Shown piece by piece: positions 3,073 to 49,600 of a stretch of 53,979 bases of DNA. The stretch lies in assembly GCA_035495615.1 (NCBI GenBank), contig DATJFP010000065.1, forward strand, positions 1 through 53,979, in the 5' to 3' direction. The notes beneath the pieces are model-generated. The model had not been told where the DNA came from, made no database searches, and saw only the letters and a program-made list of their open reading frames with translations. The DNA comes from Verrucomicrobiia bacterium. GTDB lineage: Bacteria; Omnitrophota; Omnitrophia; Omnitrophales; Aquincolibacteriaceae. Each line of letters opens with the position of its first letter. Position 1 is the first letter of the stretch. The translations under genes and the position numbers were made by a program.

Positions 3073-4338
3073 TTATTTGGGCGGCTCGAGATACGGCTTC
3101 AGGGCCTTGGGAAATTCGATCTTGCCTTCCGCCGTTTGAAAGTTTTCGATGATACAAAGCACCGTACGCGCCAGAGCAACGCCTGAGCCGTTCAGCGTGT
3201 GGACGAATTCCAGCTTGTTTGTGGCCTCGCGGCGGAAGCGGATATTGGCCCTTCTCGCCTGGAAATCCCCGAAAGTGCTGCAGCTCGAGACCTCGAACCA
3301 TTTTTCCGTGCCGGGCGCCCACACTTCGAGATCGTAGCATTTCGCGGCCGCGAAGCTCATGTCCCCGCTTCCGAGAAGGACGACGCGGTAAGGAAGCTCG
3401 AGGGCCTGCAGCACGGCTTCTGCGCAGCCCGTGAGCGACTCCAGTTCGTCCATCGAAGATTCCGGCTTCACGAACTTCACCATCTCGATCTTGTCGAACT
3501 GATGCACGCGCATGAGACCCTGCGTGTCTTTTCCGTAGGAACCGGCCTCGCGGCGAAAGCACGGCGAATACGCGGTGTAATAAACCGGAAGATCTTTTTC
3601 CTGAAGAACATCGTCGCGGTGGATGTTCGTCACCGGCACCTCGGCCGTAGGGATCAGAAAAAAGTCCTCCTCTTTCAGGCGGTACATGTCCTCTTCCATT
3701 TTGGGAAGCTGTCCCGTGCCGGTCATCGACGCACGATTCACAAGCGCCGGCGGCCACACCTCGGTGAATTTGTGCTTGGAGACATGCAAATCGATCATGA
3801 AATTAATGAGTGCGCGCTCCAGCCTTGCGCCCAGCCCGCGGTAAACCGGAAATCCGGATCCGGTCAGTTTTGCTCCCCAGGCCATGGAAAACAAGGCATT
3901 GCGCTCGGCGCCAAGCTCTAAGTGATTGGCGGGCTTGAAGTTGAACTTCCTCGGCTCACCCCAGGTTCGCACGATCTTATTCCCCTCGGCCCCACGGGCA
4001 ATGGGAACCGATTCATGAGGAACATTTGGGATCATGAGTTCAAATCCGGCTATCTTTTGAGAAACATCCCCCACTTTATCGTCTAAATCTTTGATTTTTT
4101 GGGAAACCTCCTTCATGGAGGCGATAACCTGGTCGGCGGGCTGTCCGGACTTCTTAAGGCGGGCGATTTCATCGTTCACCTGGTTGCGTTTGGCCTTGAG
4201 CTGGTCGGCCTCATGAAGATAGCCGCGTCTTTCCTGATCCAGACGCAGCAATCCGTCGAGATCCAATGTGACGTTCTTGGCTTTAAGGCCTTCGCGAACT
4301 TTGTCCGAATTTTCACGAATCCATTTGAGATCGAGCAC
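3073..4338 (-). CDS. serS: Seryl-tRNA synthetase
   Basis: Charges tRNA-Ser with serine using ATP, in the cytoplasm. The 421-aa product has the usual length and architecture: an N-terminal antiparallel coiled-coil arm (about 30-110) that grips the long variable arm of tRNA-Ser, then a class II catalytic core with motif 2 (SPCFRREAGSYGKDTQG) and motif 3 (LNGSGVALARTVLCIIENFQ). A TTG start at 4344 abuts the ribosome-binding site. The GTG at 4338-4336 lies 6 nt from AAGGAG and gives MLDLKWIREN, the normal SerRS beginning, so I choose it. Two tRNA-Ser genes follow downstream on the same strand. Confidence 0.97.
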   Translation of the reverse strand: MLDLKWIRENSDKVREGLKAKNVTLDLDGLLRLDQERRGYLHEADQLKAKRNQVNDEIARLKKSGQPADQVIASMKEVSQKIKDLDDKVGDVSQKIAGFELMIPNVPHESVPIARGAEGNKIVRTWGEPRKFNFKPANHLELGAERNALFSMAWGAKLTGSGFPVYRGLGARLERALINFMIDLHVSKHKFTEVWPPALVNRASMTGTGQLPKMEEDMYRLKEEDFFLIPTAEVPVTNIHRDDVLQEKDLPVYYTAYSPCFRREAGSYGKDTQGLMRVHQFDKIEMVKFVKPESSMDELESLTGCAEAVLQALELPYRVVLLGSGDMSFAAAKCYDLEVWAPGTEKWFEVSSCSTFGDFQARRANIRFRREATNKLEFVHTLNGSGVALARTVLCIIENFQTAEGKIEFPKALKPYLEPPK

Positions 4339-27385: not shown

Positions 27386-28950
<1,565 letters not shown>

Positions 28951-29142
28951 CTAAGGAGCACATTCCCGAATCGAAAGAAGAGGGAAGAGTGCTTAAAAGA
29001 TGTAATCCCTAGAATTGGATCGCCGTCCGCACATCAATGTCTTTTGCTAATATCAAATACTCCTAACCATGCCCTTGCTCTGCAAGGGCGTGAGTTACGA
29101 GTACGATAATGATTTGAGCATAAGCCGCAGGAATTTTCATTT
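28951..29142 (+). other. 16S-tRNA spacer
   Basis: Transcribed spacer of the rRNA operon between 16S and tRNA-Ile. I see no gene in it. Confidence 0.6.
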
Positions 29143-29219
29143 GGGCCCATAGCTCAGATGGTTAGAGCACAGTGCTGATAACGCTGGGGTCAGTGGTTCG
29201 AATCCACTTGGGCCCACCA
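29143..29219 (+). tRNA. tRNA-Ile (anticodon GAT)
   Basis: Acceptor GGGCCCA/TGGGCCC, anticodon stem CAGTG/CGCTG around CTGATAA (GAT), T arm GTGG TTCGAAT CCAC. The 3' CCA is encoded. It sits in the 16S-23S spacer. Confidence 0.97.
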
Positions 29220-29299
29220 GACGCCAGCTAAAACCAGAGTCCAAGAAATAAATTGGCTTTGAGTTTTTCCGAGCCTGTCCCTTCAGGGAAGGTTCCTTC

Positions 29300-29372
29300 G
29301 GGCCTGTAGCTCAGCTGGGAGAGCACCTGCTTTGCAAGCAGGGGGTCAGCGGTTCAATCCCGCTCAGGTCCA
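29300..29372 (+). tRNA. tRNA-Ala (anticodon TGC)
   Basis: Acceptor GGGCCTG/CAGGTCC (one G-U pair), anticodon stem CCTGC/GCAGG around TTTGCAA (TGC), T arm GCGG TTCAATC CCGC. CCA is not encoded, unlike the neighbouring tRNA-Ile. Confidence 0.97.
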
Positions 29373-29534
29373 GTAATCAAAACATTCGTGATTTAAAAAA
29401 TTTTCGTCTCTCCTTTAAAGAGAGACTGGTGCATTTTGTTCTTCAAAATGCGTCGTTCTTTGACAACGTAATGAAGTCTCGGCAGATTCATCGATATTTC
29501 ATCGAGTAAATTTGCGGGATTTTCATCGAGAAAT
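29373..29534 (+). other. tRNA-Ala to 23S spacer
   Basis: Transcribed spacer. It has a TTCTTTGACAA motif (about 29456) that often precedes 23S genes and may serve antitermination or processing. No other feature is seen. Confidence 0.5.
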
Positions 29535-32860
<3,326 letters not shown>

Positions 32861-32961
32861 CCCGATAAATCCCAAAAATTTATTGGTGAAGTATCGATGT
32901 CTCTGTCGAGACTCATTACGTTGGAATATTCGCGCTCCAGTTAAAACTGGAGCCAATCACT

Positions 32962-33079
32962 TCTCGGTGACCATTGGAGAGGGGCCACACCCGTTCCCAT
33001 TCCGAATACGGAAGTTAAGCCCTCTACCGGCGATGGTACTAACGGAGCAGTTCGTTGGGAGAGTAGCTAGTCGCCGGGA
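32962..33079 (+). rRNA. rrf: 5S ribosomal RNA
   Basis: A 118-nt gene closed by helix I, TCTCGGTGAC with GTCGCCGGGA, containing the conserved CCGTTCCCATTCCGAATACGGAAGTTAAG loop B/C region and GATGGTACT. It lies about 100 bp after 23S. Confidence 0.95.
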
Positions 33080-34807: not shown

Positions 34808-35251
34808 ATGGGTGAAATCCGGAAGCAATATTTTTTTAAGGCGTCCGTCTCGAAAGCGTGGGATGTCTGGACGAACGTCGAGAAGTATCCGGAATGGGTT
34901 GCCGGCGTTTCCCAAAGCCGGATCACGAGCGCTGTTCTCCAGGGCCCTGGATTTTCCTGGCAAGAGGACGCGGTGTTCGGGGTGACGCCGGTGCAGATGG
35001 ATCACCGCATCGAATCCTGGGAGCCGCTAAAAAAAGCCGTAGTGGAAACCTCGCTGCCGCTTGGCGGCAAGCTTCACCGTGAATTGGGATTCCAGGAAAC
35101 AGCCGAAGGCGCGGCCGTCGACATCCTGATGCGCTGGGACCTGGGGATCGCGGGCTCTTTTTTCGCGCCGGAATATGTCCACGACGTCATGGAAAAAAAT
35201 CTGGAGTTGACGGTTTCTAATTGGAAGCGGCGCGCTGAGGGCGGAGCCTAA
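34808..35251 (+). CDS. SRPBCC/START-fold protein
   Basis: A 147-aa protein with the helix-grip SRPBCC pattern: KQYFFKASVSKAWDVWTNVEKYPEWVAGV at the N-terminus, a run of beta strands, and a long C-terminal helix (DVMEKNLELTVSNWKRRAE). Members bind hydrophobic ligands in a cavity; the ligand is unknown. It starts 2 bp after the exodeoxyribonuclease gene. It ends within 4 bp of the end of the convergent 694-aa gene, with which it overlaps slightly. Confidence 0.75.
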   Translation: MGEIRKQYFFKASVSKAWDVWTNVEKYPEWVAGVSQSRITSAVLQGPGFSWQEDAVFGVTPVQMDHRIESWEPLKKAVVETSLPLGGKLHRELGFQETAEGAAVDILMRWDLGIAGSFFAPEYVHDVMEKNLELTVSNWKRRAEGGA

Positions 35252-37332
35252 GCTGCCGCGAGGAAAGACTCGAGGTTTTCAGCCTCGCCGAGGATGCTCC
35301 GTACCGACTGGAAAAATTCCGGATGGCGCACGAGTTCGCGCAGCGAGGGGTTGGACAGAAAGGCGCGGTACAGGAAAGAAACCGGCGACGAGTTCGGCAG
35401 CGCAAGGATTCTGTCGTCGATCCCTTCCGTGCCTTCGGGCACAATGGCCGCCACCAGATTTTGATTGAGCAGCTCCCGGAACTTTTCTTTGAATTCCGCC
35501 CCTGAGGAAACCTCCACCACGCTTTTCCCTTCGATGCGATGGACCCGGAATTTCCCACCGATGGCGTCCGTCGGAATGTCCGCCAGAGAACCGTAGACGA
35601 GCACAACCGAGGACGAACGCTCGGAGCGGACCGCCAGTTCCCAGAGTGTTTCGCCCGGGGGCTCTTTCAGCAGAGCATCCAGGTCCGCGGCCGTAATGAC
35701 AAGCAGGGTGCGCGCGGCACTTTCCCGCGTCTTTTGCAGCCAACCTTTCAAGGCCGTTTTCTTTTCTTCGGGCGTCATCTTTTCGTAATCCGCCCAAGCC
35801 ACTTGTTTCACCTGTGCGGCGGGTGCGGCCTCGGCCCCGCCGCCGTAGTTCATTGTCATGTCGACGGCTTTCAAAACATTGCGGTCGGTTTTGAGGTAAG
35901 CGACGCCGGCCGTGAAACCTTTGTCAAAAGACGGCGGGAAAAAACGGTTCTGGACTTCGGAAAGCGTCTGGCTCTTGACCGTCTCGGACATGCGCTTGTC
36001 GTAAAGCGCTTCATCCGGCGCCTGGCCGCCGAGCTCCGGTGTGATGACGACGTACGAGACGCCGGCTTTGCGCAGGCGCGCGGTAATTCCTTCGGTATGA
36101 AAACCGCCGGCCACCATCACGATGTTGCCTGAAAGCCGCGCGTCCGTTGTCACGGCCGAGAAAAAGCGTTCGTCGCGGGCCTTGGCGAGCGAATAATATT
36201 CGAGCGCAGTTTTCAATTCCCCGGAGAGGCCGGCCTCGGCCGTTTCCGCATCGATTGTATTCTTGTCTTGCTCATAATAGCCCAGGACATCGGGTGTGGC
36301 TTTGAGATCGAGGATGTTTTTGGCGACAAGGAACCGTTCCCATTTCTCCGCCAGGCTCCGTTCTTCGTCCTTGGCGAACAAGACATTCTGGACCCGCGCG
36401 ATCGCGTCGTCCAGCTGGGCAAAAAAATCTTTGTGTGAAATGCCGAGCTGCAGGTTCAGGAGTTCCAGGTAGCTCCGGCTGGCCGGGTAATGCTGAAGCT
36501 GTTCCTCGGGAATGATGCCGCTTTTCAGGAGCTCTTCAAAGCTGAGACGCTTCCTTTTATAGGAGTTCATGAGCCGTTCGGCCTCGGACTTCAGCTTTTC
36601 CTTGTCCAGGGCTTTTTCCATTTCCAGCGCCTTCTCGAAGAGTTTCACCTGAGTCAGGTCATCGAAAGAAAGACTGCGCTTACGCGCTTCGGCAACGACC
36701 ATCGGCAGAAAAACCTCCGCTTTCTTCCCTTCGCGGAACGCGGTCAATGCGTCGTCGAAACTTTTCAGCTCCGGATTAAACAAGGCGGCCTTGGCCTGGG
36801 TGAGCTTTTTTTGCGCGGCCCCGATTTTTTTCTGCATGGCTTCGCTGGCCTGGTGGTGCTCGAGATAGGCGGCGCGGTTTTTCTGATAAAGGTCTTCCTG
36901 CTCGATACCCACAAGCTTGAAGGGGGATTGGGAGAAGAGCGCGGCAAAGGCCGGGCCCGTGATGTCGCCGTCCTCGAGAAGCGCGCGGGCAAGCGTTTGT
37001 TTTTCCCGGGAATTGGGCAGCCCCCAGCTTTCCGGAAAACTTGTTTCCGACCAGCCGCCTTCCAGCGCCGCGGTGTTCAAGCCGTAAACCGCGTTCAGGT
37101 GATCCAGGATCGCGGCGATGTTTTCCTGGGCGGGAAGGTGCGCGTGCACGTCCTGGATCTCGATGACCCACCGCGATCCGGTTCCTTGAAATCGTTCTTC
37201 GATTTTTCCCAGGGATTTGGGGATCAGGAGACTGTCGAGCGAAAGCGGGGCCGCGGTCTCTTCGGTTTGGGCCGGCAAAGAGGAAGCACTCCAAAGAACG
37301 TATAAAAGCATGATGAGACAAACCCGTTTCAT
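35248..37332 (-). CDS. Exported 694-aa protein with IQDxH and GGFH motifs (ChaN/EreA-like)
   Basis: Not a named family that I can give with certainty. A signal peptide (MKRVCLIMLLYVLWSASSLPA) precedes a domain with WVIEIQDVHAHLPAQENI (D61, H63), E91 in AALEGG, a GIEQEDLYQKN segment, a long coiled-coil-like helical middle, and AGGFHTEGITARL (H412) ending in VSYVVITPEL. The same motifs occur in the giant protein at 38430. The DxH...E...GGFH order recalls the ChaN haem-binding and EreA/TIKI superfamily, which has GExH and GxGH in these places. The C-terminal 250 aa is separate and unrecognised. A TATACT -10 (37345-37340) lies 7 bases from the ATG, suggesting a leaderless mRNA. Confidence 0.75.
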   Translation of the reverse strand: MKRVCLIMLLYVLWSASSLPAQTEETAAPLSLDSLLIPKSLGKIEERFQGTGSRWVIEIQDVHAHLPAQENIAAILDHLNAVYGLNTAALEGGWSETSFPESWGLPNSREKQTLARALLEDGDITGPAFAALFSQSPFKLVGIEQEDLYQKNRAAYLEHHQASEAMQKKIGAAQKKLTQAKAALFNPELKSFDDALTAFREGKKAEVFLPMVVAEARKRSLSFDDLTQVKLFEKALEMEKALDKEKLKSEAERLMNSYKRKRLSFEELLKSGIIPEEQLQHYPASRSYLELLNLQLGISHKDFFAQLDDAIARVQNVLFAKDEERSLAEKWERFLVAKNILDLKATPDVLGYYEQDKNTIDAETAEAGLSGELKTALEYYSLAKARDERFFSAVTTDARLSGNIVMVAGGFHTEGITARLRKAGVSYVVITPELGGQAPDEALYDKRMSETVKSQTLSEVQNRFFPPSFDKGFTAGVAYLKTDRNVLKAVDMTMNYGGGAEAAPAAQVKQVAWADYEKMTPEEKKTALKGWLQKTRESAARTLLVITAADLDALLKEPPGETLWELAVRSERSSSVVLVYGSLADIPTDAIGGKFRVHRIEGKSVVEVSSGAEFKEKFRELLNQNLVAAIVPEGTEGIDDRILALPNSSPVSFLYRAFLSNPSLRELVRHPEFFQSVRSILGEAENLESFLAAA

Positions 37333-37425: not shown

Positions 37426-38274
37426 ATGCCAGCCACCCAGCAGCAGACCATCCGTTTCGGCCACAGCCCTGATCCTGACGACGCGTTCATGTTCTATGCC
37501 TTTGCCAAAAACAAGATTCCCATGGACGGGTTCCAGGTCGATCACGTCATCGAGGATATCGAGAGCCTGAACCAGCGCGCGCTCAAGGCGGAGCTGGAAG
37601 TGACGGCCGTATCCTGCCATGCCTATGCCTACCTGGCGGACAAATACGCGGTCATGCGTTCCGGCGGCAGCATCGGCGATAAATACGGGCCCATCGTCGT
37701 GGCCCCAAAAGGGACTTTTCCCGGCCAGCCTTTGAGAGGGAAGAGGATCGCCATTCCCGGCAAGCTGACGACGGCCTTTCTCGTGCTGCAGCTCTATGAA
37801 AAAAATATCGTCCCGGTCTTTGTTCCTTTTGACCAGATTTTTGATGCGGTCCGCGAAGGCAAAGCCGATATGGGGCTCATCATCCACGAAGGGCAGCTTA
37901 CCTATAAAGATGAGGGCTTCGAAAAGAGAGTGGACTTGGGCGAATGGTGGCATCAGACCACAGGGCTTCCTCTTCCGCTGGGAGTGGACATTATCCGCAG
38001 GGACCTCGGCGCGGACATCATGCAAAGGTTCGCGCGCCTTTTCAAAAAAAGCATCCAATATTCTCTCGATAACCGAGCGCCGGCGCTCGAGTACGCGATT
38101 CAATACGGCCGCGGACTCGCGGAAGATCTTAACGACCAGTTCGTCGGCATGTACGTCAACGACGCCACAGTGGACATGGGCGACAAAGGCCTTCGCGGTT
38201 TCCAGACTCTCCTCGATCAAGGGTACGAACAACGCCTGATTCCTCACCGCATCAAGATCGACCTCGTTGGATAG
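37426..38274 (+). CDS. mqnD: MqnD-like protein (1,4-dihydroxy-6-naphthoate synthase family)
   Basis: A 282-aa periplasmic-binding-protein-like enzyme of the MqnA/MqnD family in the futalosine route to menaquinone. The N-terminal FGHSPDPDDAFMFYAF is the MqnD hallmark, and VSCHAYAYL, GKRIAIPGKLTTAFL and GLIIHEGQLTY are further family segments. MqnD converts the cyclic de-hypoxanthinyl-futalosine product to 1,4-dihydroxy-6-naphthoate. No other mqn gene is in the window, so MqnA or another paralogue cannot be fully excluded. Lack of a Shine-Dalgarno and the abutting promoter point to leaderless translation. Confidence 0.85.
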   Translation: MPATQQQTIRFGHSPDPDDAFMFYAFAKNKIPMDGFQVDHVIEDIESLNQRALKAELEVTAVSCHAYAYLADKYAVMRSGGSIGDKYGPIVVAPKGTFPGQPLRGKRIAIPGKLTTAFLVLQLYEKNIVPVFVPFDQIFDAVREGKADMGLIIHEGQLTYKDEGFEKRVDLGEWWHQTTGLPLPLGVDIIRRDLGADIMQRFARLFKKSIQYSLDNRAPALEYAIQYGRGLAEDLNDQFVGMYVNDATVDMGDKGLRGFQTLLDQGYEQRLIPHRIKIDLVG

Positions 38275-38319: not shown

Positions 38320-38347
38320 TTGACGCCCCGAAAAAAAATGTTACACT
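38320..38347 (+). promoter_or_regulatory. Candidate promoter of the giant gene
   Basis: -35 TTGACG (38320-38325), 16-bp spacer, -10 TACACT (38342-38347), about 85 bp before the ATG at 38430. Confidence 0.6.
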
Positions 38348-38367: not shown

Positions 38368-38395
38368 ACAGGTTTATAAAGCTTTATAAACCTGT
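38368..38395. promoter_or_regulatory. Perfect 28-bp palindrome in the giant-gene leader
   Basis: The sequence centred on TTTATAAAGCTTTATAAA is a perfect inverted repeat of 14 bp per arm with no loop. It lies about 20 bp after the -10 box and 35 bp before the start codon. It could be an operator for a dimeric regulator, or act as a hairpin in the mRNA leader. Confidence 0.7.
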
Positions 38396-38429: not shown

Positions 38430-41400
38430 ATGCGCTACCCCTTATGGAAGAAGCTCACCGCCGTTCCCGTCCTTTTCACCTTCATTTTCTCCAGCATTGT
38501 TTGGGCTGCTCCCGCAGAATTTAATCTCGCAGGGCCGGTCCATGCCTCCGTCCAGGACGGCGTACTGCTGCCGTCTCTTGCGCAGACGCTCGACATCCCG
38601 GCGACGTATGGCGATATCAAGGAACGCTTTCTCGCGGAATCGTCGCGGCCGCAAACCGCATCCGGAATGATCATTCATATCCAGGACGCCCACGCCAATC
38701 TCGAAGCCCAGCAAAACATTCTGCAAATCATCCGCCACGTCACGGCGCATCATGGCGTGGGCCTCATCTTTGTAGAAGGCGCGATTGACCGTCTCGACGC
38801 GGATCGCCTGCGTTATTTCAAAGAGGAATCCTGGAACCAGGAAATGGCGGGCCTGCTCGCCAAGGAAGGCGTGCTGGGAGGGGCCGAGCTTTTTCTTCTC
38901 GAGAACACGGCGTCGAAAAAAGGAACGGTCGCAGGCTACGGCGTCGAGCGGGCCGATCTCTACGTAAAAAATCTGCAGGCCTACCGCGCCGTTTACGCGG
39001 AAAAAGAATTCACGGACAAGGCCATGGAGCGCATGAAGTCCGAGATCCTGACGCAGAGCTCCAAGGTTTTCAACAAAGAGCTCAAGGCGTTTTTCAGAGA
39101 ATGGCTTTTTTATCAGGATGTTCCCAGTGAACTCATGCGCCATATGAATGTTCTCAGCCAGGATGCTCTCAAGTACCTTAGCCTGGACCTGAACGATGCC
39201 CGTCAGCAGGCGGATTGGCCCCAGCTCGTCCGGTTTTCCAAATTCAAAACCCTGGAAGCGGAAACCGACGCAGCGGCCGCGCTCGCGGAGCGTGACCTGT
39301 TGGCAGATTGGGCCGCCCAACATGGGGTGCCCGAAAAATACACCGCTGAATTGCGGAATTGGAAGCCGGGCCAGGCCCTGGAAGGCGGGACGTTCAGCGA
39401 TCTGAGAATGTTCCTGGAAGCCTTTCATGACGCGGCCGCACCTAAGGGATTTTCTTTCAAGGATTACCCGCGGCTTGCGAAGGCCATGGGCGCGTCGGTT
39501 CTCAGAAGCGAGATCCGCGCCGAGGAATTGATGGAGGAGATCAAGAAGCTGAGCGATTCCATCCTGGACAAGCTTGCGCGGACGCCCGAAGAAGGTGCCT
39601 TGATCGCCCGGTACAAGGATTATCTCCTGCTCGAAAAACTTTTTTCTCTCGAACTCGTCGATGAAGAATACGAAACGCTGCAAACCCGCCGCGAAACGGT
39701 GAAGGCGGCGCTCGCCCGGCCGGAAGAAAATGAAAAGGCCGCGGCGGACGAGACTTCCCACCGCGCTTACGAACCGCGCGTTCCTTCGCTTGCGCAGCTT
39801 TTTGACCAGGCCATGGCGTTTTACAAGCTCGCGCAGCAGCGCGAAGAAGTGATTTATGGGAACATGATCCGCAAGATGAGGGAGACCGGTAAGACAAACG
39901 CCATCTTAATCACGGGCGGATTTCACGCGCGCGGCCTGCACAAAATTTTCGAGAACCAGGGCCTTTCTTACGTCGAAGTGACGCCCGCCATTTCCGAGAT
40001 CACCGAAAATAAAAACTATTCCGACATCATGCTTATGAAGGGCGATCCGTTCACCCGGCGTTCTTACGTCAACACGCCGCGCATGGCGGACACCGGCCTT
40101 GGAACGAACCTTCCGGACTACGCTCTTAGCCTGCAGCAGAATCACGTGCTGCCGGTTTTGGGCACGGTCGTAGCACGGCACGTTGCTCAAGGGACAGAGC
40201 TGGGCAAAATCCTCAAGTCACTCGGCCGCTCTCATGCGCTCGCGGGCCAGGGCCTGGCCATCGCCGATAATGGACTCGTTTTACTTAACGGAAAGCCGCT
40301 CCAGATCAACGGACGGACCGCGGTCCTGACCGCTCAAGGATTGAAATCGGAAGAGGGACGCGCCGAACTGCGCGCTTCCGAATTTCCGAGAAGTGTCGCG
40401 CTCAACGTGCAGTATCTGGAAGAAAGACGGCTTCTCAACGGCGCGCCGGCGGACGAAGATCATGTCGTCATGCCGGAACCTCAGTATCAGCCGGCTTTGG
40501 TGGGCGCGGCGAATCCGGGCGCTCCGGTACAGAGCGGCACGACGGTTGTGGGCTATCAGCATTCGATTTATCTTCCGGGCACGGAAAGTTTTTTGCCCGG
40601 CGGCATTGCCACGGGACAAAGCCGCACGTACGGCACCGCGCCTACCGGTCCGGTTTCTTCCGGGGCTTCGGTCATGCCGATGTCGAGCCCCTCGGGAAGC
40701 ATTGCTTCTCCGGACGGTAAAAAATCCATCGCATTGGAAGGCTCTTCTCTCGTCGTCCAGGACCTGCAGGATGCGAGCAAGACGATCCGTTATGACGCGC
40801 CGTTTCTTCTCAAAGTCAGCGGCATCCAGTCCTACGCCTTCAGCAGCGACAACAACTGGATCGTGATCGCGGACGGGCAGCGCATGGTCTATGCGTTTCA
40901 TCTGAACAACCCCAATCTTCTCAACTCGCCCCAAGGTTCGGTGCGCGGATTCCAGATTCCGGGATTGGATCCCGCGTTTCTTTCGGGCATGCAGCGGAAT
41001 CCGGAAGGTTACAACGTAAAGATCCTCGGCCGCTCTCTCGACCACCCGAACATTTTTAATGCGGAACTGATCAACGGCGAAACCTACCAGCTCTACCTCG
41101 ACGACCATGAATTCCGCCAGGAATCCGGACCTGTCGTGACGCTGGCGCGGGAAAACGTCCCCGGCGCGCAGATCACGGCGCTTCCCGACACCTACACGGT
41201 CAGGGCCTTCAACGGCTCCACGATCACGAGCCGCACGGACCACGGCGTCACGTTTCATTACGATACCACGCATCAAAGCGCCACAGGCATCGGCATTACC
41301 TTCGATCAGCCCGCGGATCTGAGCCAGATGGGATTTTTGAAAATCGGAATCGAAGGCGTGGCTTCGCAGATCATGCTCACGATCAGGACCTACGACGCAC

Positions 41401-44400
41401 AGACGGGCGGCACCATCGGCGCCCTGTATCTGGCCGACGTCCAAAACATTCCCGGAAAAGGCGCGGTCGTGGATTTGTCGAAACTCGCCAGCCAGGGGCG
41501 CGGCGTGGACCTGCGGCACGTGGGCGAAATCAATTTTACGCTGGGCATTGCCCACGCCGGCGGCGGCGAAATCCCGGCCACAGGAGAGGTGACGATCAAT
41601 TTCGCTCCTTTTTCCCAAGCCACGCTCGCGGACGTGAACCTTCTCAGCCCGCAGCAGTCGGTGCTGACGGACATCGGTTTGATCGACAGCGGTGATGCGC
41701 CGCACACAACACGCGTCCCCGGAGACAAAGTGCGCGTGCCCGTGAAAGGCCCGGCCTTTGATTTCGGGGGCTTCACGTACGGCTTTCCTCTGAGCCGCGC
41801 GGAGATCGAGCGCCGCGGCAATCTCGTCTTCACGCTGGAAGCCGAAGGCGAGACCGGCAATCTTTTCATGGAATTTCAGAGTTCGGACCGTAAAGTGGTG
41901 AGAGTCGCGGTGGCGCTGACGCTGGCCGACGGCCGTAAAGTCTTTTCGATTTCGGCGCAGCAGCTCGCGTCGCTTCCGGATCTCAATTACGTGCAGGTGG
42001 TGGCGGAATCTAAAAACAGCGTTCCGCTGAACGGCGCGGTCACGATCGGGCTGCGTCCCGAAGGCCTTGAAATCTTCGGGCCATCGGCGTTGACGGCCCA
42101 GGACCTCACGGATTTTCAGTTTACCGGACAGGTTGTGTCGCTCGGAAACTCGGAAGACAGCCGGACCACGTTTAATCTTGCCGCGAAAACGGTCAGCGTG
42201 CATGTGAACACCGGCCCTGCCGGAGCGCTGAATGGATTTGCCGGCGGAGGCGCCACGTCGCTGCGCCCGCAGGTGGTGGGCGACCAGGTCGTGCTCGCGA
42301 TCGCTTCGACCGCGGGAACGGTCCTCGATGTCGAGTTCAACGATTTCAGCACGGGGCAGCAGCGGAGCGTGAAATTCGAAGTCCAGGGCGTGGAAACCGG
42401 CCTGACGGTTTATGCTTTTCCGCGCGCGGCTTTTACCCGCGCCGGAATCCAGCCGGAAAACGTCTCGAACGTGATCGCCATTGCCTCGGTCAATCATGCC
42501 GGGCCCCAGGAAGGCGACATCATGATGAAGCTGGCCCCGCTTTCCGTCCCCGCGGGATGGACGGCCGCGGCCTCGAACGGCAACTACGCGTTTCATCTTG
42601 AATCCAACCGCCTGCCCAGCGGCGTTACGGAAGAAAAACTTTCTTTGATGGACCTGAGAACGGGCGCGGTTCAAATCCTCGCGCAAGCGCAGACGCCTTC
42701 CGGCGGAAGGATCGGAAGCGTTTACGACGTTTCTCCGGAATCGTTCCCGGGTTTCCCGGTCGTGGTTTACGAAACCGGAGGCCCGCGCACGGACAGCGGC
42801 CATTTTTTCACGGTGCACGTGCAGCGCATCGACAATGCCGCGCAGTATCAGGAAACCTACAGCCGGGTTCAGCAGGCGGAGCCCGTGCTTCAATCCGTCC
42901 GGTTTGAAAATAATATCGTAACGCTGACGACGCGGAACCGTTTTCCCAGCGGCACCGTGACTCAGGATCTCGACGCATTTGAAGTTGGCGCTGGCTCCAT
43001 TCTCCGGAGCGGCCGTCCGCTTACGACGATTCTGACCGCGGGCACGGGCCTTCTCGTCGACCAGGACACGCCTATCGTGCTTCAGCCCGAGCACCTCGGC
43101 TCTGAAAGCGGCCGGTTGTTCCAGGTTTACGTCTATGATGCCAGCCAGGGGCAGGTGAACATGCCCACCAAACGTGTGCTCGGCCTCGGCGGGGATTCGA
43201 GCGGCGCTTATACGCTTCTCGATGGCTACACGACTCCCTCAGGAAAACAGATCATTTCCATTGGCGTCGACGGCAGCACCGCCAACCGCAGCGTGATCGA
43301 AGAACAAACGACCTTCAAGGTCCTGAATCTCCCGGGCGCCGTCATCTCGGTCCAATATAATGGAAACCTGGGAACGTACCGCGTCCGGAATAATGACGGG
43401 ACGGAGCAGACCGTGGCCGTGAATTTCGACACCATGACGATTGTCCCGACCTTCGCGGACGTGAACCTCTTGACGCCACAGGAGTCGGTGCTGACCGGCA
43501 TCGGCCTCATCGACAGCGGGGACCGGCCGAACACCACGCGTGTGCCCGGAGACAAAGTGCGCGTGCCGGTGCGCGGCAATACTTTTGATTTCGGCGGGTT
43601 CACTTACGTCCAGCCTCTCAGCCGCGCGGAAATCGACCGGCGGGGAAATCTCGTGTTTACCCTGGAAGCCGAAGGCGAGATCGGCAACGTCTTCGTGGAA
43701 TTCCAGAGCTCCGACCGCAAGGTCGTGAAAATTCCGGTGACGATCGCGCCCGCGGACGGACGCAAGGTATTTACGGTGTCCGCGCAGCAGCTCGCCGCGC
43801 TTCCGAATCTCAATTACGTGCAAGTGGTGGCGGAATCCAAGGGCGCCGCGCTGAACGGCGCGGTCACGATCGGCCTGCGCCCCGAAGGCCTGGAAATTTT
43901 TGGACCTTCCGCGGCGCTGGCGACGCGCGATGTGACGGATTTTCGTTTCACGGGCCAGACCGTCTCGCTCGGCACGAGCGAAGACAGCCGCATTGTTTCA
44001 ATCGACACCACCGGGAAAGCGGTGACCGTGCATGTGGATACGGGCTCCGCGGGAACGCTGAGCGGTTTTGCCGGCGGTGGCGCGACCGCGCTTCGTCCCC
44101 AAGTGGTGGGCGATCAAGTCGTGCTTGCGCTTTCGTCCACGGCCGGAACCATCTTGGACATCGAGTTCAATGATTTCACCTCAGGCCTGCAGCGGAGCGT
44201 GAAATTCGAAGTGCAAAGCGTGGGAACCGGCCTGACGGTTTATGCTTTTCCGCGCGCGGCGTTTACCCGCGCGGGCATTCAGCCGGAAAACGTCTCGAAC
44301 GTGATTGCCATCGCGTCCGTGAATCATCCGGGACCTCAGTCGGGCGACATCAGCCTCCGGCTTGCGCCCGTGGAAAATCCTTCGGTCATCGTGGATCGCG

Positions 44401-47400
44401 AGATCATCATTGCCGGCAACACCGTGACGGGCACGAACCTGTCCACGGTGCTCGCGCAATCCGGCCTCGACCAGAAAGGCGTGACGCCGGCCAGCCTGAA
44501 TTTTCCGGCGGGCCTCGAAAACGCGCACTATTACGCGGCGCTCATCCACACGTCCGAAGGCGACAAGTATTTTGTCGCCTACAGCGGGCAGATCAATCAC
44601 TATGAAACGCGGACTTCGTACACGACCGGTTACGGCGACCACGGTGTGCCCATTTCCATCCCGTATACTTACAGCGCGCTGGTCTCGGTCAATCCCGTGG
44701 GAGGCCTTTATTACGTGCGCCCGGGGCATGAGACTTTGCGCAAGGACGTGGGGCCTCTGGGCAGCATCGGTTTTAATCCCGGCGCGGAGCTCATCGTGCA
44801 GCGCCAGTACGCGAGCAATTTCGTGGCGGATTCCATCCGCCCCGACGGCACGTTTGCCGCGAGCGTGCGGGAAGTGGTGGTGGCGGACAGAACGCTTTCG
44901 AATCCCGAGTTTTTTTATGCGACGCGGTACCAGGGCGGCGCTGCGCCGTACGTTTATGACGTTTACCGCAAGGACGGCACGCTCGTCGCGACGTTCACGA
45001 AAACCATGAACCTCGGTCCGTCTTCGGTCAATGCTGTGGGCGTTCCAGACGTGTCGCCGGACAGCCACTATCTGATCCTGGGCCAGCAAAGCCGTTCGCT
45101 TTACACGGGCCATGACACGAAACGCTTGTATGTCCTTGTCTATGACGCGCAGACCGGCCGGCAGCTGCCGGGATTCACGATCCAGGACGTGGACAATCAG
45201 GCGCTGACGATTCCCTCGGACATCCGTTTTATGCCCGGATCCAGCCGTTACGTGCGCGTGCTTTATCCGACCGGGCAGGCGGATTTCTATGACGTGACCA
45301 GCGGTCAGAAGGTGAATGTGCGTTCCAGCGTGCTGGCGCCGGGGCTGATCAATTATTTCCCGCCGGAAGGCACGGCGTTCCAGATCGACGCGCGGAACGG
45401 ACAGTTCCACCTCCTCGAGCTTCCGGCCATCATCTCGGTCAATACCAACGTGGTCGGCACTTCGTTTGTCCGCCTCGTGAACACGGCGCACGGCGAGCTT
45501 CAGATTTATCACAACAGCCAGCGCTCCAACGACAGCCTTGTCGTTTTCAATGCCCGCACCGGTTACGTGCAGGTGGATTCCGCCCAGGGCTTTCCTTTCG
45601 TGGGAGAAGGCGAAGAAGCGGCCGTGGCGTTCAGCCCGAGCGGCAATCAGATCGCGATCGCCGGCGGCGTCAACCGCGTGTACTTTATTCCTTACAAAGA
45701 ATTCGCGCAGACCGGCACGGTGGATCTCGTCAATCTGCCGCTGAATTCCCAGACCGGCCGGACGCAGCGCGCGGTTAAAATCACGTTCGAATCCGAAACC
45801 GTGGCGATCGTCGAAACCAAAGCCACGATCACGACGCCGCAGGGAGTCGTCACCGGAGAAATGCCGGGAGACAAATTCAAGATCGACCTCGGCACGCATC
45901 CTGCCACGGTCACCCGGATTTCCGGGCTGCCGGCCGGCTACACGCTGGCGCCTTCGAACGCCAACTTCGCGTTCCGCACCGACGTGCTGAACGGCTATCT
46001 GCTGCGCCTGTTTTTGCTGGACGTGCGCACGGGCCAGGAGCAGCAGCTCGCGACCGCGTCCATCGAATCCTACGGCGACCAGGTTTTCAAAGTTCACGAC
46101 GTTTCGCCGCAGGGCGACTTCGCGGCCTTCGGCATCGCGGGCTCGAATGCACGCGTGCAGAAAATCAGCAATGCCGCGCAGGGGATTTCAGTGCCGATCA
46201 CCTACGGCCTCAACACGATTACTTGGACCACGCTTCCGGGCGGCGACCGCGCCGTGGTTCTGGCTAGCCCGAACCCTGCGATCAACAAGACCGTGAATCT
46301 CCGGACGCTTCAAGTTGAGCCGACGCTTCCAGCAGGCTACAGGCTTGCCGCATCAAACCCTAATTATGCGTTTGCCGTGAAGCTCGATGCGACGCAGCTG
46401 AACGCGAATCTCTACCTCATCGACGTGCGCAATCCTACAAATGAGATCCTGGTCGGCGGCGGAAGCCGCGTGCGCCACAGCCCGGGGAAGTACGACATTT
46501 CGCCCGACGGCAGCGTCGTGGTCGCGGCTTTCTATGAAGCCGGCCCGATTCTCGGCCAGCTTTCACAGGTGAACTTTTACCGGCGCTCCGATCTCGAAGC
46601 GGGCAACCGCACGCCGGTTAAAACCATTGGACCGGCCGCGGCCAATTCCATCCGTTTCGAGCCGGGTTTCGCGGTTGTGGAAGCCACGGTGAGGACGGCG
46701 TCCTATCCGAACGAGCCGGCGACGGAATCGAAGACCTTCCGCGTTTCGCTTTCGGATTTCCTCCCGGCGGTCCCGGCGGGATTCACGGTGACGCCGTCGA
46801 ATCCTGCTTACGCGTTCCACGAAGTGCGTGCGGGCGAAACCATTCAGAGGCCCGGAAGCAATGTCCAGCGCATTGTCCTCTTGAACCGGCTGACGTCCGA
46901 GCAAAGTGAGCTTACGGTCGTCGATCATCCGGAACACGTGGACGTAAGCCCGGACGGAAGATTCGCGATCGTATCTTCGTACATTCCGCAGGGCGCGCAG
47001 ACGGCCTTTATAAGGAAGCAGTCCACGATTTTCGTCCGCGATTTGAACGCGAAGACGAACCGGAACATCGATCTTCCGGATGCGAAGCCGGTTCTGGACG
47101 CGCGCTTTTTGCCGGGCTCCAGCAGCTTGATCCGAGTCGTTTACAAAAACGGCGAGGCCGAGCTTTACGACGCGGCCTCGGGGCAGAAAGTCACGCTTCG
47201 GAAAGACGTGCTCGCTCCCGGCCTGGTCAATTATTTTCCGCCGAACCAGGGCAAGGCCTTTCAAGTGGACACCCGCCAGGGGCAGGCCGAGCTCATCGAG
47301 CTTCCTCCCGTGATCGCGGTCCGCACGAACGTGGCCGGAACTTCTTTCGTGGGCCTCGTGCAAACCGCGCATGGAGAACTGCAGGTTTACAATTACGACG

Positions 47401-49481
47401 AACGTTCGAATACGCATGTCGTTGTTTTCAATGCCAGGACGGGTTACGTGCAGCAGGACTATGCCCAGGGCTTCGGCAGCGATTCGCCGGTGGTTTTCAG
47501 CCCGAGCGGCAATCAAATCGTGACCGCCAACAGCATCAACCGCGTTTACCTGATTCCTTACCGGGAATTCGCGCAGACCGGGAGGACGGAAGTGATCAAT
47601 CTCCCGCTGAGCACGAAAACCGGACACCTGCAAAGGGCGGTCGGGTTCACGTTCCAGTCGGAAAAAATAATCGTCGCCTCGACTAGGGCCACGGTCGCCA
47701 CGCCGCAGGGCATTGTGACCGGCGAGATTCCGGGCGACACGTTCAAGATCGATTTGAACACGCGCCCGGCTACTGTGACGATCATGCGTCATGCGCCTCC
47801 GACGCCCGTGACACCGCGGCCGCAGCCCGGACCCGTGCAAGGCCCTGTGCAGCAAGGGCCCAAGACTCCCGTGAAGGCGGAAAAGCCGCGGGAGCAAAAG
47901 CCGGGCGTGAGCCCCTTGTTTTTCCTGCCGCCGAATGCGCTCAATGCCATGACCGCGCCGCACGTGGACGTGAATCCCGTGGTGCTCAACGCGCTTTTCG
48001 GAAATGGTAATCCCACTCTGCCCGCGCAGGCGCTCCCTGTTCCGCAGAAGCAGCCGCTTTCCCCTTACGGTTATTTCGGAGGAGGGGGCGACCTCATTCC
48101 CGACCAGATCATCGAAGGCAATACGCCGCTCGGGCGCGTGCGTATCGAGTATTTCGCGCGTGAAACCCGGGAAGGCCTGCTGCACACCTTCCGTATCACG
48201 GTGACGGACGCGGAAGGCCGGACAACCCAGCTCCAGATCCAAATCCGCACGCCGCAGGGCACGGCGCCGTTCCGGAAGCTGGAAATCCGCGGCACCAAGG
48301 TTTTGGGAGACGGGGAAGAAATCCTCGATTTCGAAAAGAGGCTCAAAGAAAAGGCGGAGAACGAAAGACGAATCGATGAATTGTTCGCCGATCACGACGA
48401 ACTTTCGGATCTCGGCCTGGCGGTCGTGCTGTCCGGCGTTTATCTGGGCGGGACTTCGCCGGTAGCGCCCACCAAAAAAGTGACGCGCATTGTTCCGCCG
48501 CGGAAGTCGGAGCTTCGCATCAGTGCTCCCGCGGCCGTTTCCGAGGACGTGCTGACGCGTTATTTTGCCCGGTATCCGAATACGCTGGACGCCGTCGCGG
48601 AAACCGCGCACGTCGCGGCCGACACAATCGGCTATGCGCATCGCGTGGATGATATAGTTTTCCGCGCGCTGCTGGACAAGATCGTTCCTGCTGTGGCGAA
48701 AGTCGCGCAGATCGATGTGGCCAGCTTCCGTTCGGAAATCGACTCGAGCATTGCTGCCACACAGAAGCTGCTGGCCAACGGCACGCTTGTCCTGGAAGGC
48801 GCGGGCTCGGTAATTCTGACGACGTCAGGCGCGCTGCAGGACCGCAAGCCCTTGCTGCTCGCGGCCATCCCGTTCATGGTGGCGCTTGCCAAGCAGGACA
48901 AAACCGGAACGTACGCGCAGTCGTTCAAGCTCGTGGGCGAAAATGCCCGCGCGTTGAAAGACGCGGTGTACGCGGCGAGTAACAATCTCACTCCCGAAGA
49001 AAAGAACCTGGTGGGCAAGATCGTGGATTTCGCGACGCAGCCGAATACTTCCTTGTCGGATGTGGTCGGCGAGTACATCCACCAGGAAGAAAAGAGCAAC
49101 CGCTCCGTCGCCGTATCGCTGAAAAGCGAAGAAGCGTCGCAGCTTTCCAAGGTGCTCGCAAATATCCTCAAGACGATAGAAAACGCCCAGGAAATGAAAG
49201 TCAGCGGCAACCCGCAGGCCCTCGTCAAGACCGCGGAGGCTTATGTGACGCGCGCGCTGCTGCTCCTCGACCTGGCGTCGAAGCTCAAGATGAGCGCCGA
49301 GCTTTTGAAACAGCAGCCGGACCAGATCGCGGTTTTGATCCGCGAATATTTCGCGCAGAAATTGCCGGACATCCACGTGGACGTGGCAAACGACGGTTCT
49401 TTCGATCTGCCGCTGAATGCCGTGGCCGCGCAGCTCGCGATCTTCAAGGCCGCGCAACGGAAGGTGGATGCCGCCGCATAA
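38430..49481 (+). CDS. Giant secreted protein, 3,683 aa
   Basis: Not recognised as a whole. A signal peptide (LTAVPVLFTFIFSSIVWA, cleavage near A26/A27) precedes an IQDxH domain: IIHIQDAHANLEAQQNI (D86, H88), E116 in FVEGAID, and GGFHARG (496-502), paralogous to the 694-aa protein. Next come a linker (about 690-770) and beta-rich blocks with propeller-like SPDGK/SPSGN strands, including two large duplications. A Pro-rich linker (about 3125-3165) leads into a final, mainly helical domain (about 3370-3683). No transmembrane or anchor segment is visible at the C-terminus. A perfect terminator lies about 120 bp after the stop. Function is unknown; an outer-surface or periplasmic role is inferred. 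Confidence 0.85.
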   Translation: MRYPLWKKLTAVPVLFTFIFSSIVWAAPAEFNLAGPVHASVQDGVLLPSLAQTLDIPATYGDIKERFLAESSRPQTASGMIIHIQDAHANLEAQQNILQIIRHVTAHHGVGLIFVEGAIDRLDADRLRYFKEESWNQEMAGLLAKEGVLGGAELFLLENTASKKGTVAGYGVERADLYVKNLQAYRAVYAEKEFTDKAMERMKSEILTQSSKVFNKELKAFFREWLFYQDVPSELMRHMNVLSQDALKYLSLDLNDARQQADWPQLVRFSKFKTLEAETDAAAALAERDLLADWAAQHGVPEKYTAELRNWKPGQALEGGTFSDLRMFLEAFHDAAAPKGFSFKDYPRLAKAMGASVLRSEIRAEELMEEIKKLSDSILDKLARTPEEGALIARYKDYLLLEKLFSLELVDEEYETLQTRRETVKAALARPEENEKAAADETSHRAYEPRVPSLAQLFDQAMAFYKLAQQREEVIYGNMIRKMRETGKTNAILITGGFHARGLHKIFENQGLSYVEVTPAISEITENKNYSDIMLMKGDPFTRRSYVNTPRMADTGLGTNLPDYALSLQQNHVLPVLGTVVARHVAQGTELGKILKSLGRSHALAGQGLAIADNGLVLLNGKPLQINGRTAVLTAQGLKSEEGRAELRASEFPRSVALNVQYLEERRLLNGAPADEDHVVMPEPQYQPALVGAANPGAPVQSGTTVVGYQHSIYLPGTESFLPGGIATGQSRTYGTAPTGPVSSGASVMPMSSPSGSIASPDGKKSIALEGSSLVVQDLQDASKTIRYDAPFLLKVSGIQSYAFSSDNNWIVIADGQRMVYAFHLNNPNLLNSPQGSVRGFQIPGLDPAFLSGMQRNPEGYNVKILGRSLDHPNIFNAELINGETYQLYLDDHEFRQESGPVVTLARENVPGAQITALPDTYTVRAFNGSTITSRTDHGVTFHYDTTHQSATGIGITFDQPADLSQMGFLKIGIEGVASQIMLTIRTYDAQTGGTIGALYLADVQNIPGKGAVVDLSKLASQGRGVDLRHVGEINFTLGIAHAGGGEIPATGEVTINFAPFSQATLADVNLLSPQQSVLTDIGLIDSGDAPHTTRVPGDKVRVPVKGPAFDFGGFTYGFPLSRAEIERRGNLVFTLEAEGETGNLFMEFQSSDRKVVRVAVALTLADGRKVFSISAQQLASLPDLNYVQVVAESKNSVPLNGAVTIGLRPEGLEIFGPSALTAQDLTDFQFTGQVVSLGNSEDSRTTFNLAAKTVSVHVNTGPAGALNGFAGGGATSLRPQVVGDQVVLAIASTAGTVLDVEFNDFSTGQQRSVKFEVQGVETGLTVYAFPRAAFTRAGIQPENVSNVIAIASVNHAGPQEGDIMMKLAPLSVPAGWTAAASNGNYAFHLESNRLPSGVTEEKLSLMDLRTGAVQILAQAQTPSGGRIGSVYDVSPESFPGFPVVVYETGGPRTDSGHFFTVHVQRIDNAAQYQETYSRVQQAEPVLQSVRFENNIVTLTTRNRFPSGTVTQDLDAFEVGAGSILRSGRPLTTILTAGTGLLVDQDTPIVLQPEHLGSESGRLFQVYVYDASQGQVNMPTKRVLGLGGDSSGAYTLLDGYTTPSGKQIISIGVDGSTANRSVIEEQTTFKVLNLPGAVISVQYNGNLGTYRVRNNDGTEQTVAVNFDTMTIVPTFADVNLLTPQESVLTGIGLIDSGDRPNTTRVPGDKVRVPVRGNTFDFGGFTYVQPLSRAEIDRRGNLVFTLEAEGEIGNVFVEFQSSDRKVVKIPVTIAPADGRKVFTVSAQQLAALPNLNYVQVVAESKGAALNGAVTIGLRPEGLEIFGPSAALATRDVTDFRFTGQTVSLGTSEDSRIVSIDTTGKAVTVHVDTGSAGTLSGFAGGGATALRPQVVGDQVVLALSSTAGTILDIEFNDFTSGLQRSVKFEVQSVGTGLTVYAFPRAAFTRAGIQPENVSNVIAIASVNHPGPQSGDISLRLAPVENPSVIVDREIIIAGNTVTGTNLSTVLAQSGLDQKGVTPASLNFPAGLENAHYYAALIHTSEGDKYFVAYSGQINHYETRTSYTTGYGDHGVPISIPYTYSALVSVNPVGGLYYVRPGHETLRKDVGPLGSIGFNPGAELIVQRQYASNFVADSIRPDGTFAASVREVVVADRTLSNPEFFYATRYQGGAAPYVYDVYRKDGTLVATFTKTMNLGPSSVNAVGVPDVSPDSHYLILGQQSRSLYTGHDTKRLYVLVYDAQTGRQLPGFTIQDVDNQALTIPSDIRFMPGSSRYVRVLYPTGQADFYDVTSGQKVNVRSSVLAPGLINYFPPEGTAFQIDARNGQFHLLELPAIISVNTNVVGTSFVRLVNTAHGELQIYHNSQRSNDSLVVFNARTGYVQVDSAQGFPFVGEGEEAAVAFSPSGNQIAIAGGVNRVYFIPYKEFAQTGTVDLVNLPLNSQTGRTQRAVKITFESETVAIVETKATITTPQGVVTGEMPGDKFKIDLGTHPATVTRISGLPAGYTLAPSNANFAFRTDVLNGYLLRLFLLDVRTGQEQQLATASIESYGDQVFKVHDVSPQGDFAAFGIAGSNARVQKISNAAQGISVPITYGLNTITWTTLPGGDRAVVLASPNPAINKTVNLRTLQVEPTLPAGYRLAASNPNYAFAVKLDATQLNANLYLIDVRNPTNEILVGGGSRVRHSPGKYDISPDGSVVVAAFYEAGPILGQLSQVNFYRRSDLEAGNRTPVKTIGPAAANSIRFEPGFAVVEATVRTASYPNEPATESKTFRVSLSDFLPAVPAGFTVTPSNPAYAFHEVRAGETIQRPGSNVQRIVLLNRLTSEQSELTVVDHPEHVDVSPDGRFAIVSSYIPQGAQTAFIRKQSTIFVRDLNAKTNRNIDLPDAKPVLDARFLPGSSSLIRVVYKNGEAELYDAASGQKVTLRKDVLAPGLVNYFPPNQGKAFQVDTRQGQAELIELPPVIAVRTNVAGTSFVGLVQTAHGELQVYNYDERSNTHVVVFNARTGYVQQDYAQGFGSDSPVVFSPSGNQIVTANSINRVYLIPYREFAQTGRTEVINLPLSTKTGHLQRAVGFTFQSEKIIVASTRATVATPQGIVTGEIPGDTFKIDLNTRPATVTIMRHAPPTPVTPRPQPGPVQGPVQQGPKTPVKAEKPREQKPGVSPLFFLPPNALNAMTAPHVDVNPVVLNALFGNGNPTLPAQALPVPQKQPLSPYGYFGGGGDLIPDQIIEGNTPLGRVRIEYFARETREGLLHTFRITVTDAEGRTTQLQIQIRTPQGTAPFRKLEIRGTKVLGDGEEILDFEKRLKEKAENERRIDELFADHDELSDLGLAVVLSGVYLGGTSPVAPTKKVTRIVPPRKSELRISAPAAVSEDVLTRYFARYPNTLDAVAETAHVAADTIGYAHRVDDIVFRALLDKIVPAVAKVAQIDVASFRSEIDSSIAATQKLLANGTLVLEGAGSVILTTSGALQDRKPLLLAAIPFMVALAKQDKTGTYAQSFKLVGENARALKDAVYAASNNLTPEEKNLVGKIVDFATQPNTSLSDVVGEYIHQEEKSNRSVAVSLKSEEASQLSKVLANILKTIENAQEMKVSGNPQALVKTAEAYVTRALLLLDLASKLKMSAELLKQQPDQIAVLIREYFAQKLPDIHVDVANDGSFDLPLNAVAAQLAIFKAAQRKVDAAA
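41628..42521 (+). repeat. Giant protein, internal repeat A, copy 1 (aa 1067-1364)
   Basis: 298 residues beginning ADVNLLSPQQSVLTDIGLID and ending GPQEGDI are repeated almost unchanged at aa 1676-1974. Shared runs include RVPGDKVRVPV, RRGNLVFTLEAEGE, GLRPEGLEIFGPSA and VYAFPRAAFTRAGIQPENVS. The content is mostly beta strand. Confidence 0.9.
43455..44351 (+). repeat. Giant protein, internal repeat A, copy 2 (aa 1676-1974)
   Basis: Second copy of the 298-residue block, with one extra residue; it differs from copy 1 mainly by conservative changes. Codon use has drifted more than the protein, so the duplication is not very recent or selection has kept the protein constant. Confidence 0.9.
45222..45920 (+). 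repeat. Giant protein, internal repeat B, copy 1 (aa 2265-2497)
   Basis: About 230 residues from IRFMPGSSRYVRVLY, including VLAPGLINYFPP, VFNARTGYVQ, FSPSGNQIAIAGG and TTPQGVVTGEMPGD, recur at aa 2891-3119. SPSG-type strands suggest a beta-propeller or similar. Confidence 0.85.
47100..47786 (+). repeat. Giant protein, internal repeat B, copy 2 (aa 2891-3119)
   Basis: Second copy of block B (ARFLPGSSSLIRVVYKNG, VLAPGLVNYFPP, VFNARTGYVQ, FSPSGNQIV, TPQGIVTGEIPGD). It is more diverged than repeat A and leads into the Pro-rich linker. Confidence 0.85.
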
Positions 49482-49503
49482 GACGGCGGTTTCTCCGTCC
49501 GCC

Positions 49504-49545
49504 GCTTATGCGGTACTCGGCTATCAAGCCGAGTGCGGCATAAGC
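49504..49545. repeat. Imperfect inverted repeat after the giant gene
   Basis: An 18-nt arm GCTTATGCGGTACTCGGC faces a near-complementary arm across a 6-nt loop, with two non-Watson-Crick positions. It has no T tract, so it is more likely a repeat element or a 3' mRNA-stability hairpin than a terminator. Confidence 0.5.
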
Positions 49546-49600
49546 TGGAGAAAAAAACTTTGTTCTTTGGAAGAAACGCTGGCTTTTCCAAGGGACGGCA

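Follow-up and report, generated by a model that had tools for sequence, protein, structure and literature searches.

A giant exported protein of Omnitrophota is one of a large family with a common, predicted TIKI-superfamily head and a short C-terminal tail

The 3,683-residue protein encoded at 38430-49481 of the window (the whole stretch of DNA analysed here, 53,979 nucleotides) is a member of an extensive family of giant exported proteins with the same kind of N-terminal head and a short fixed tail, while their middles are nearly unrelated. On its family and predicted fold, the head very probably belongs to the TIKI/ChaN/erythromycin-esterase superfamily. The best account we can give, at a probability of roughly 0.5, is an exported giant whose head is a TIKI-type hydrolase and whose C-terminal tail serves for recognition.

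The gene is a single uninterrupted frame, as the original prediction had it: it opens with ATG and stays open over 3,683 codons on the plus strand, with internal stops absent. The predicted signal peptide was also found, as a putative one judged by eye from the hydrophobic N-terminus MRYPLWKKLTAVPVLFTFIFSSIVWA, and the predicted N-terminal IQDxH motif reads IQDAH at residues 84-88. The parts of the frame are as follows.

38430-49481, plus strand: giant headed protein, 3,683 aa, cysteine-free
38430-38507, plus strand: putative Sec signal peptide, residues 1-26, from a by-eye reading of the sequence
38589-40052, plus strand: head, a predicted TIKI-superfamily domain of about 490 residues (54-541), from homologues and predicted fold
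40053-41588, plus strand: linker and Gly/Pro/Ser-rich to beta-rich region, residues 542-1053, with no family match
41589-42554, plus strand: beta-rich block A, residues 1054-1375, from self-comparison of DNA and protein
43413-44384, plus strand: second copy of block A, residues 1662-1985, from self-comparison of DNA and protein
45048-45932, plus strand: block B with SP[DS]-type strands, residues 2207-2501, from self-comparison of DNA and protein
46941-47798, plus strand: second copy of block B, residues 2838-3123, from self-comparison of DNA and protein
47787-47924, plus strand: Pro-rich linker, residues 3120-3165, from sequence reading
48603-49478, plus strand: C-terminal region common to other proteins, residues 3392-3683, from sequence matches elsewhere
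49401-49478, plus strand: C-terminal tail signature, the last 26 residues, ending VDAAA-COOH, from tail comparison

Behind the head, the body is beta-rich by composition. The duplicated beta-rich blocks reported earlier were found as two pairs at both protein and DNA level, with 69-77% identity over aligned slices between the copies of block A (1054-1375 and 1662-1985) and 54-61% between those of block B (2207-2501 and 2838-3123). Also confirmed were the SPDG/SPSG motifs (residues 753, 760, 2402, 2691, 2840 and 3024), the Pro-rich linker (residues about 3120-3165) and the helical end, where the C-terminal region is rich in Ala, Leu, Lys and Glu. AlphaFold, given residues 2540-3125 with three sequences as input, returned a pLDDT of 36, and the propeller-like reading of the earlier prediction stays putative. 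A Pfam search with the whole protein produced sub-threshold matches only, none of them on the head, and a PDB sequence search with it produced nothing useful and nothing above threshold. The G+C content of the giant frame is 0.60-0.61 from 40 kb on (measured over 40001-48000), against 0.50-0.58 for the remaining part of the window before 40 kb.

The flanking DNA bore out one of three predicted elements. The palindrome upstream of the gene is perfect over 28 nt (38368-38395). When its 24-nt core was searched genome-wide at up to 3 mismatches, no second occurrence was found, and this single occurrence rules out a family operator. The proposed promoter of the gene's own, TTGACG-16-TACACT at 38320-38347, does not stand out: the region has four such promoter-like sites, and chance alone would give 2.9. 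The proposed terminator is a strong hairpin at about 49502-49548 followed by A7 instead of a T run, and it is therefore not a canonical intrinsic terminator on the plus strand.

38368-38395, no strand: perfect 28-nt palindrome, 3' of the promoter-like site and 5' of the start codon
49502-49548, plus strand: strong hairpin 3' of the stop, without a T run, folding z -6.6
35248-37332, minus strand: second headed protein, 694 aa, ATG at 37332, with IQDVH, GGFH and a tail ending FLAAA

The minus-strand frame listed from 38247 over-extends this 694-aa protein, whose true start is at 37332. Antisense to the over-extended portion, and upstream of the giant gene, lies an ORF at 37430-38274 (plus strand), whose product looks by eye like a menaquinone enzyme of MqnD type (futalosine pathway). 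About 5 kb upstream of the giant gene, at 27386-33079, there is a complete 16S-Ile-Ala-23S-5S rRNA operon.

With residues 1-640 as the query, at least 28 loci with the head were found in the same 3.16-Mb genome (our grouping of 42 matched pieces), in open frames of 604-23,964 aa and with the head near the N-terminus. A profile search of the same genome gave 31 matches, with 33 of 39 candidates scored. The headed frames total 118,503 aa, or 355.5 kb and 11.2% of the assembly, counted as stop-to-stop frames of which several are cut at contig ends; 11 of the 28 run off a contig end. The bodies of these 28 proteins hardly match one another, and residues 641-3524 of the 3,683-aa protein found a sole match of 76 residues in their own genome, near the C-terminus. 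The original prediction described a combination that it could not match. This no longer holds, with the head being one of at least 28 in the genome and phylum-wide, and what is specific to this gene is the repeats behind the head, not the head. Contig ends in this assembly often lie inside giant frames, with the last residues common to another contig; such pairs were matched computationally (C28/C21, C14/C31) or by eye (C44/C33, C35/C39).

Beyond this genome, a profile of the 28 heads found matches in 104 of 193 genomes of the phylum, with few candidates scored per genome. The head was present in all 49 genomes sampled from the class, at up to 43 matches per genome, where one match can be a piece. 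Because the head alignment A1 was too divergent for a pattern scan, the scan was built on a 10-row subset of it; fixing QDAH and covering one genome per species (84,980 species), it returned 136 relatives. Among the best 80 of the 136, 79 were titled as Omnitrophota relatives and one as Elusimicrobia. The Elusimicrobia-titled MAG carried 16 head matches, and 35 of 119 genomes from its phylum, whose name comes from one NCBI record title, carry the head, which rules out a restriction to Omnitrophota. For the 80 named loci, which like the rows of alignment A3 derive from the QDAH-fixing scan, all 79 frames with an uncut upstream end had the head at most 162 residues from the stop before it, and in 73 of the 79 a strongly hydrophobic stretch came ahead of the head. 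A search for the same domain order in other Omnitrophota, proposed along with the original prediction, recovered the head plus the tail and, largely, not the middle.

AlphaFold modelled the head from 60 aligned sequences with a pLDDT of 91 and a pTM of 0.87. Foldseek alone gave no significant match to this model, its best E value being 0.16. VIA-align, in a ranking that covered only folds on Foldseek's own list, placed EreC (Z 9.0 and 8.8), HopBA1 (8.4), ChaN (8.4) and Bcr135 (8.0 and 7.9) at the top. All six rows are of the TIKI superfamily and the following row fell to 5.4, with a Z of 8-9 being near the level that this tool calls middling. In the accessible part of a study of this superfamily, HopBA1, Bcr135 and ChaN are grouped as TIKI-superfamily proteins and the Ere family is tied to them (PMC6254334). 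The Pfam family most often matched by the heads was PF04187 ('Haem-binding uptake, Tiki superfamily, ChaN'), which 13 of 60 heads hit with an E value of 1 or less, as against 4 of 60 for the next family. The best of these E values was 2e-4, all matches were below the cut-off (one head of another genome scored 23.6 bits against a cut-off of 27.7), and none of 145 genomes of the phylum had a PF04187 match over the gathering score. The erythromycin-esterase profile PF05139 had no match in the own genome, and hhalign of alignment A3 with one Ere-like protein gave no profile match. Sub-threshold ChaN matches apart, membership of the head in the recognised Ere or ChaN families by sequence was thus unsupported. 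The earlier guess of a metal- or haem-site fold survives in part, in that the predicted fold is that of the TIKI/ChaN superfamily, whose ChaN branch binds haem.

Four residues of the head are of particular note.

38691-38693, plus strand: H88, first catalytic-position His (IQDAH); 28 of 28 own heads and 128 of 128 rows, selected partly by motif
38775-38777, plus strand: E116, catalytic-position Glu at the end of the second core strand; 28 of 28 and 128 of 128, outside the selection
39840-39842, plus strand: R471, conserved basic residue (FYxxAxxR[DE]); 28 of 28 and 128 of 128, outside the selection
39924-39926, plus strand: H499, second catalytic-position His (GGFH); 28 of 28 and 128 of 128, selected partly by motif

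All four are among the invariant columns of the 28 heads, where mean column identity is only 31%. Rows of the 128-row set were chosen by a motif pattern in which H88 and GGxH are partly fixed; P519, outside the selection, is likewise invariant in 128 of 128. In the AlphaFold model, H88, E116 and H499 sit at strand ends. The TIKI peptidase VvRRSP, as described in the accessible portion of its report, needs a 2His/2Glu set and a conserved Arg for activity (PMC6254334). H88, E116, R471 and H499 follow the order of His3902, Glu3930, Arg4001 and His4030 in VvRRSP, a correspondence drawn from residue order and not from superposed structures. The head has no Glu at the first Glu position of the 2His/2Glu set; Q85 and D86, each present in 123 of 128 heads, take its place, and D86 may stand in for it. 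We consider the head to be probably an active hydrolase.

At the other end, headed proteins finish in what reads as a helix of fixed register closing in Ala. All 17 complete headed proteins of the own genome end in [ASMQ]A, compared with 14 of 388 sampled ORFs (Fisher p 6e-22). For the ending [AS][AM]A the counts are 11 of 17 and 1 of 388 (p 1e-16), and for any final Ala 17 of 17 and 51 of 388 (p 1e-14); the tail classes were defined after the own-genome tails had been seen, and the controls are the complete ORFs on a further 40 contigs of that genome, which together have 599,627 bases. A further headed giant runs off the end of contig C14 into C31 and ends in QASA. When 36 tails were aligned gap-free from the C-terminus, I, L, V or F occupied position -5 in 33 and I, L or V position -15 in 30, and positions -18, -19 and -22 were mostly hydrophobic. 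Of the 388 controls, 97 have ILVFM at -5 and 72 have ILV at -15. The 36-row table excluded the complete non-Ala frames L083, L084 and L143, the masked ends of L065, L067 and L120, and the stand-alone enzymes.

Fresh sets were drawn from 40 fetched frames, of which 14 were cut or not closed and 2 duplicated rows of the 36-row table. In the Omnitrophota set, 8 of 12 frames end in Ala with a matching score and 4 have no tail, two of these four having masked bases near the end. In the Elusimicrobia set, 12 of 14 end in Ala and all 14 have a hydrophobic residue at -5; positions -9 and -15, at 3 of 14 and 5 of 14, were not reproduced there. A tail marking all giants is ruled out by L201 and L168, which have none; L168 is a large exported-looking protein of the same genome (3,102 aa) with neither head nor tail.

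In other classes the head occurs as a stand-alone, exported-looking protein of about 520-650 aa. The neighbours of these were compared at 20 loci after duplicate removal, of which 18 have an intact head (in one case truncated right at the start); L083 and cut copies in genomes G151 and G123 were left out. Each of the 18 intact heads is followed on the same strand by a gene for a leader-bearing protein (leader read by eye). The follower frames begin anywhere from overlapping the head to about 630 nt from it, 13 of the 18 have at least 1,000 aa, and at some loci they form arrays of two to four. A 1,187-aa exported-looking protein comes after one of the two broken heads; the other has no such follower. 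Across four control stretches, 1 of 66 ORFs reached 1,000 aa, and this was the follower of a broken head. The analysis shows the head to be linked to an exported protein, by fusion or as neighbouring genes. In a tree of the 128 heads (midpoint root, quick method), 18 of 19 stand-alone rows fell in one half, and the label 'alone' required 4 changes as against 18.1 when shuffled.

The known follower ends in some lineages are AFQA (in two genomes), LKAA, LIQA, LIQA and ALQA. Followers in the lineage coded f21 and in genome G008 are not Ala-ended, so that head and tail are not strictly tied; a strict tie fails in f21. Many headless exported giants encoded behind stand-alone heads (L250-L269, first 60-100 residues) show LRP soon after the leader, for example in ALRPGIEG, YALRPLAAG, DKLRPEAF and DMLRPP, and this start may mark a second family of giant exported proteins.

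The bodies contain assorted domains. Of 12 own headed frames or parts scanned, 7 had a Pfam match at E up to 0.001. One carries PEP-utilising enzyme, Glu/Leu dehydrogenase and HPr domains; others carry a three-domain acyl-CoA dehydrogenase, a 4-alpha-glucanotransferase, a methyltransferase, an FHA domain, HEAT repeats and weak HAD and ATPase matches. Most of these domains are normally intracellular. Metabolic enzyme domains of the PEP-utilising enzyme, acyl-CoA dehydrogenase, amylomaltase and methyltransferase kinds were seen inside the leader-bearing giant frames L031, L030, L026 and L035 (contigs C62, C63, C84 and C43), and a headed frame in another genome (L270:454-3261, G032 contig C10) has sigma-70 region 2 (E 9.2e-07) and a weak helix-turn-helix behind the head. 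The Pfam search found none of these domains in the body of the 3,683-aa protein. Similar domain mixtures have been noted in gigantic Omnitrophota proteins, according to the accessible part of one report (PMC12419801).

In the account that we prefer, the protein is laid out as a signal peptide, a TIKI-superfamily head, a variable body and a helical C-terminal tail ending in Ala-COOH. It would cross the inner membrane by Sec. His88, Glu116 and His499, together with Arg471, would activate water, as proposed for TIKI and Ere enzymes, and the fixed-register C-terminus would serve as a recognition signal that needs a free carboxylate. The beta-rich body of the 3,683-aa protein may be a display or binding region at the cell surface. 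Because the same enzyme adjoins exported proteins when unfused, we infer that the head acts on or with such proteins, and the partner that it acts on or matures would be the giant to which it is fused or adjoins rather than a chance one. That the head acts on its own giant partner is nevertheless a tentative proposal, to which we give clearly less than even odds. The replaced Glu and the partners that have no tail count against the account. Broader still, and in our estimate unlikely, is a maturation system in two phyla, not described in the literature searched, in which a TIKI-family hydrolase, fused or encoded alongside, would recognise or cut giant Sec-exported proteins with an Ala-COOH tail.

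Several other readings were weighed against this account. The head may be a non-catalytic haem- or metal-capture module of ChaN fold at the cell surface, for which the body would be a stalk. Such a module is favoured by the high structural rank of ChaN, by the Pfam matches of the heads, which fall on the ChaN family more than on any other, and by the replacement of one Glu of the catalytic set; however, the invariance of His, Glu, Arg and His at catalytic positions is as expected of an enzyme, and we hold a haem-binding head to be improbable. A slightly better, though still poor, chance is given to a lytic or effector-like hydrolase aimed at prey or host, with binding and enzyme modules in the bodies and the tail as an export signal. 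Giant Omnitrophota ORFs are tied to attachment and predation in the accessible parts of two reports (PMC10066038; PMC12419801), and the superfamily includes the secreted effectors HopBA1 and VvRRSP. Nonetheless, stand-alone heads adjoin exported proteins of the cell itself, a better fit to self-directed action, and an acyl-CoA dehydrogenase, an amylomaltase and a sigma-70 region would be odd parts for a weapon.

The bodies could also be loosely selected collages of stray genes, of which only head and tail are kept while the middle has no defined function. This would explain why the 28 bodies hardly match each other, why assorted intracellular domains are embedded in them and why the body of the 3,683-aa protein matches almost nothing in its own genome. 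However, the frames stay open over 11-72 kb, and the lack of cysteine in 3,683 residues together with duplicated blocks kept at 54-77% identity suggests some constraint, so that we rate the collage about as low as the haem-binding head. Far less probable than any of these is an assembly artefact or spurious frame. The genome is a draft MAG in which 11 of 28 headed frames run off a contig end, but the head accompanies long open frames in every one of the 49 genomes sampled from the class, and for two headed frames the continuation was found on another contig with a common end; for the family as a whole, an artefact is already refuted.

The common enzyme-like front end is a first handle on the role of giant proteins in these uncultured bacteria. 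Head and C-terminal signature together make it possible to detect, tally and sort a large share of the Omnitrophota giants. H88, E116, R471, H499 and the last few residues are the positions whose change should break the system, and the 694-aa paralogue in the window, having both ends and little between, is a minimal test case.

The closest known proteins by phylum are the giant Omnitrophota ORFs, which the accessible text of their report describes as poorly conserved, with few annotated domains and unclear function, and which include a 39,678-aa protein of V. archaeovorus (PMC10066038). Going by that text, they come from the same phylum as the 3,683-aa protein and, like it, are giant and exported and carry few annotated domains. 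The description there makes no mention of a head or tail common to them. The same text counts ORFs above 20 kb, and the 11-kb frame falls short of this; family members of the same genome exceed it, for example one of 23,964 aa.

The head resembles the TIKI superfamily (TIKI, TraB/GumN, ChaN, erythromycin esterases and RRSP) in its core alpha/beta fold with a parallel sheet, by structural alignment, and in having a His after the first core strand, a Glu after the second and a His (GxxH) after a late strand. The order and placing of His, Glu, Arg and His and the sub-threshold ChaN profile matches add to this likeness. It differs from the superfamily in a long helical insert between core strands, in having Q/D for the first catalytic Glu, in being covered by no Pfam model, and in being fused to giant exported bodies or encoded beside them.

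For the tail, two kinds of C-terminal signal invite comparison. LPXTG and PEP-CTERM sorting signals consist of a motif, a membrane helix and a basic C-terminal cluster. Like the tail, they are short signals at a fixed C-terminal distance on otherwise unrelated exported proteins, with a partner enzyme; unlike them, the tail has no membrane helix or basic cluster and ends directly in Ala-COOH, and none of the three features was seen by eye in the 36 tails. By analogy, the doubtful maturation system considered above would parallel sortases and exosortases, with an unrelated enzyme and an unrelated tag. Ala-COOH tails are themselves recognised ends for tail-specific proteases and in the tmRNA tag. 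These have in common with the tail a C-terminal -AA and a hydrophobic residue a few places earlier, whereas the tail of the headed proteins is encoded in the gene and follows about 20 residues of a putative fixed-register amphipathic helix.
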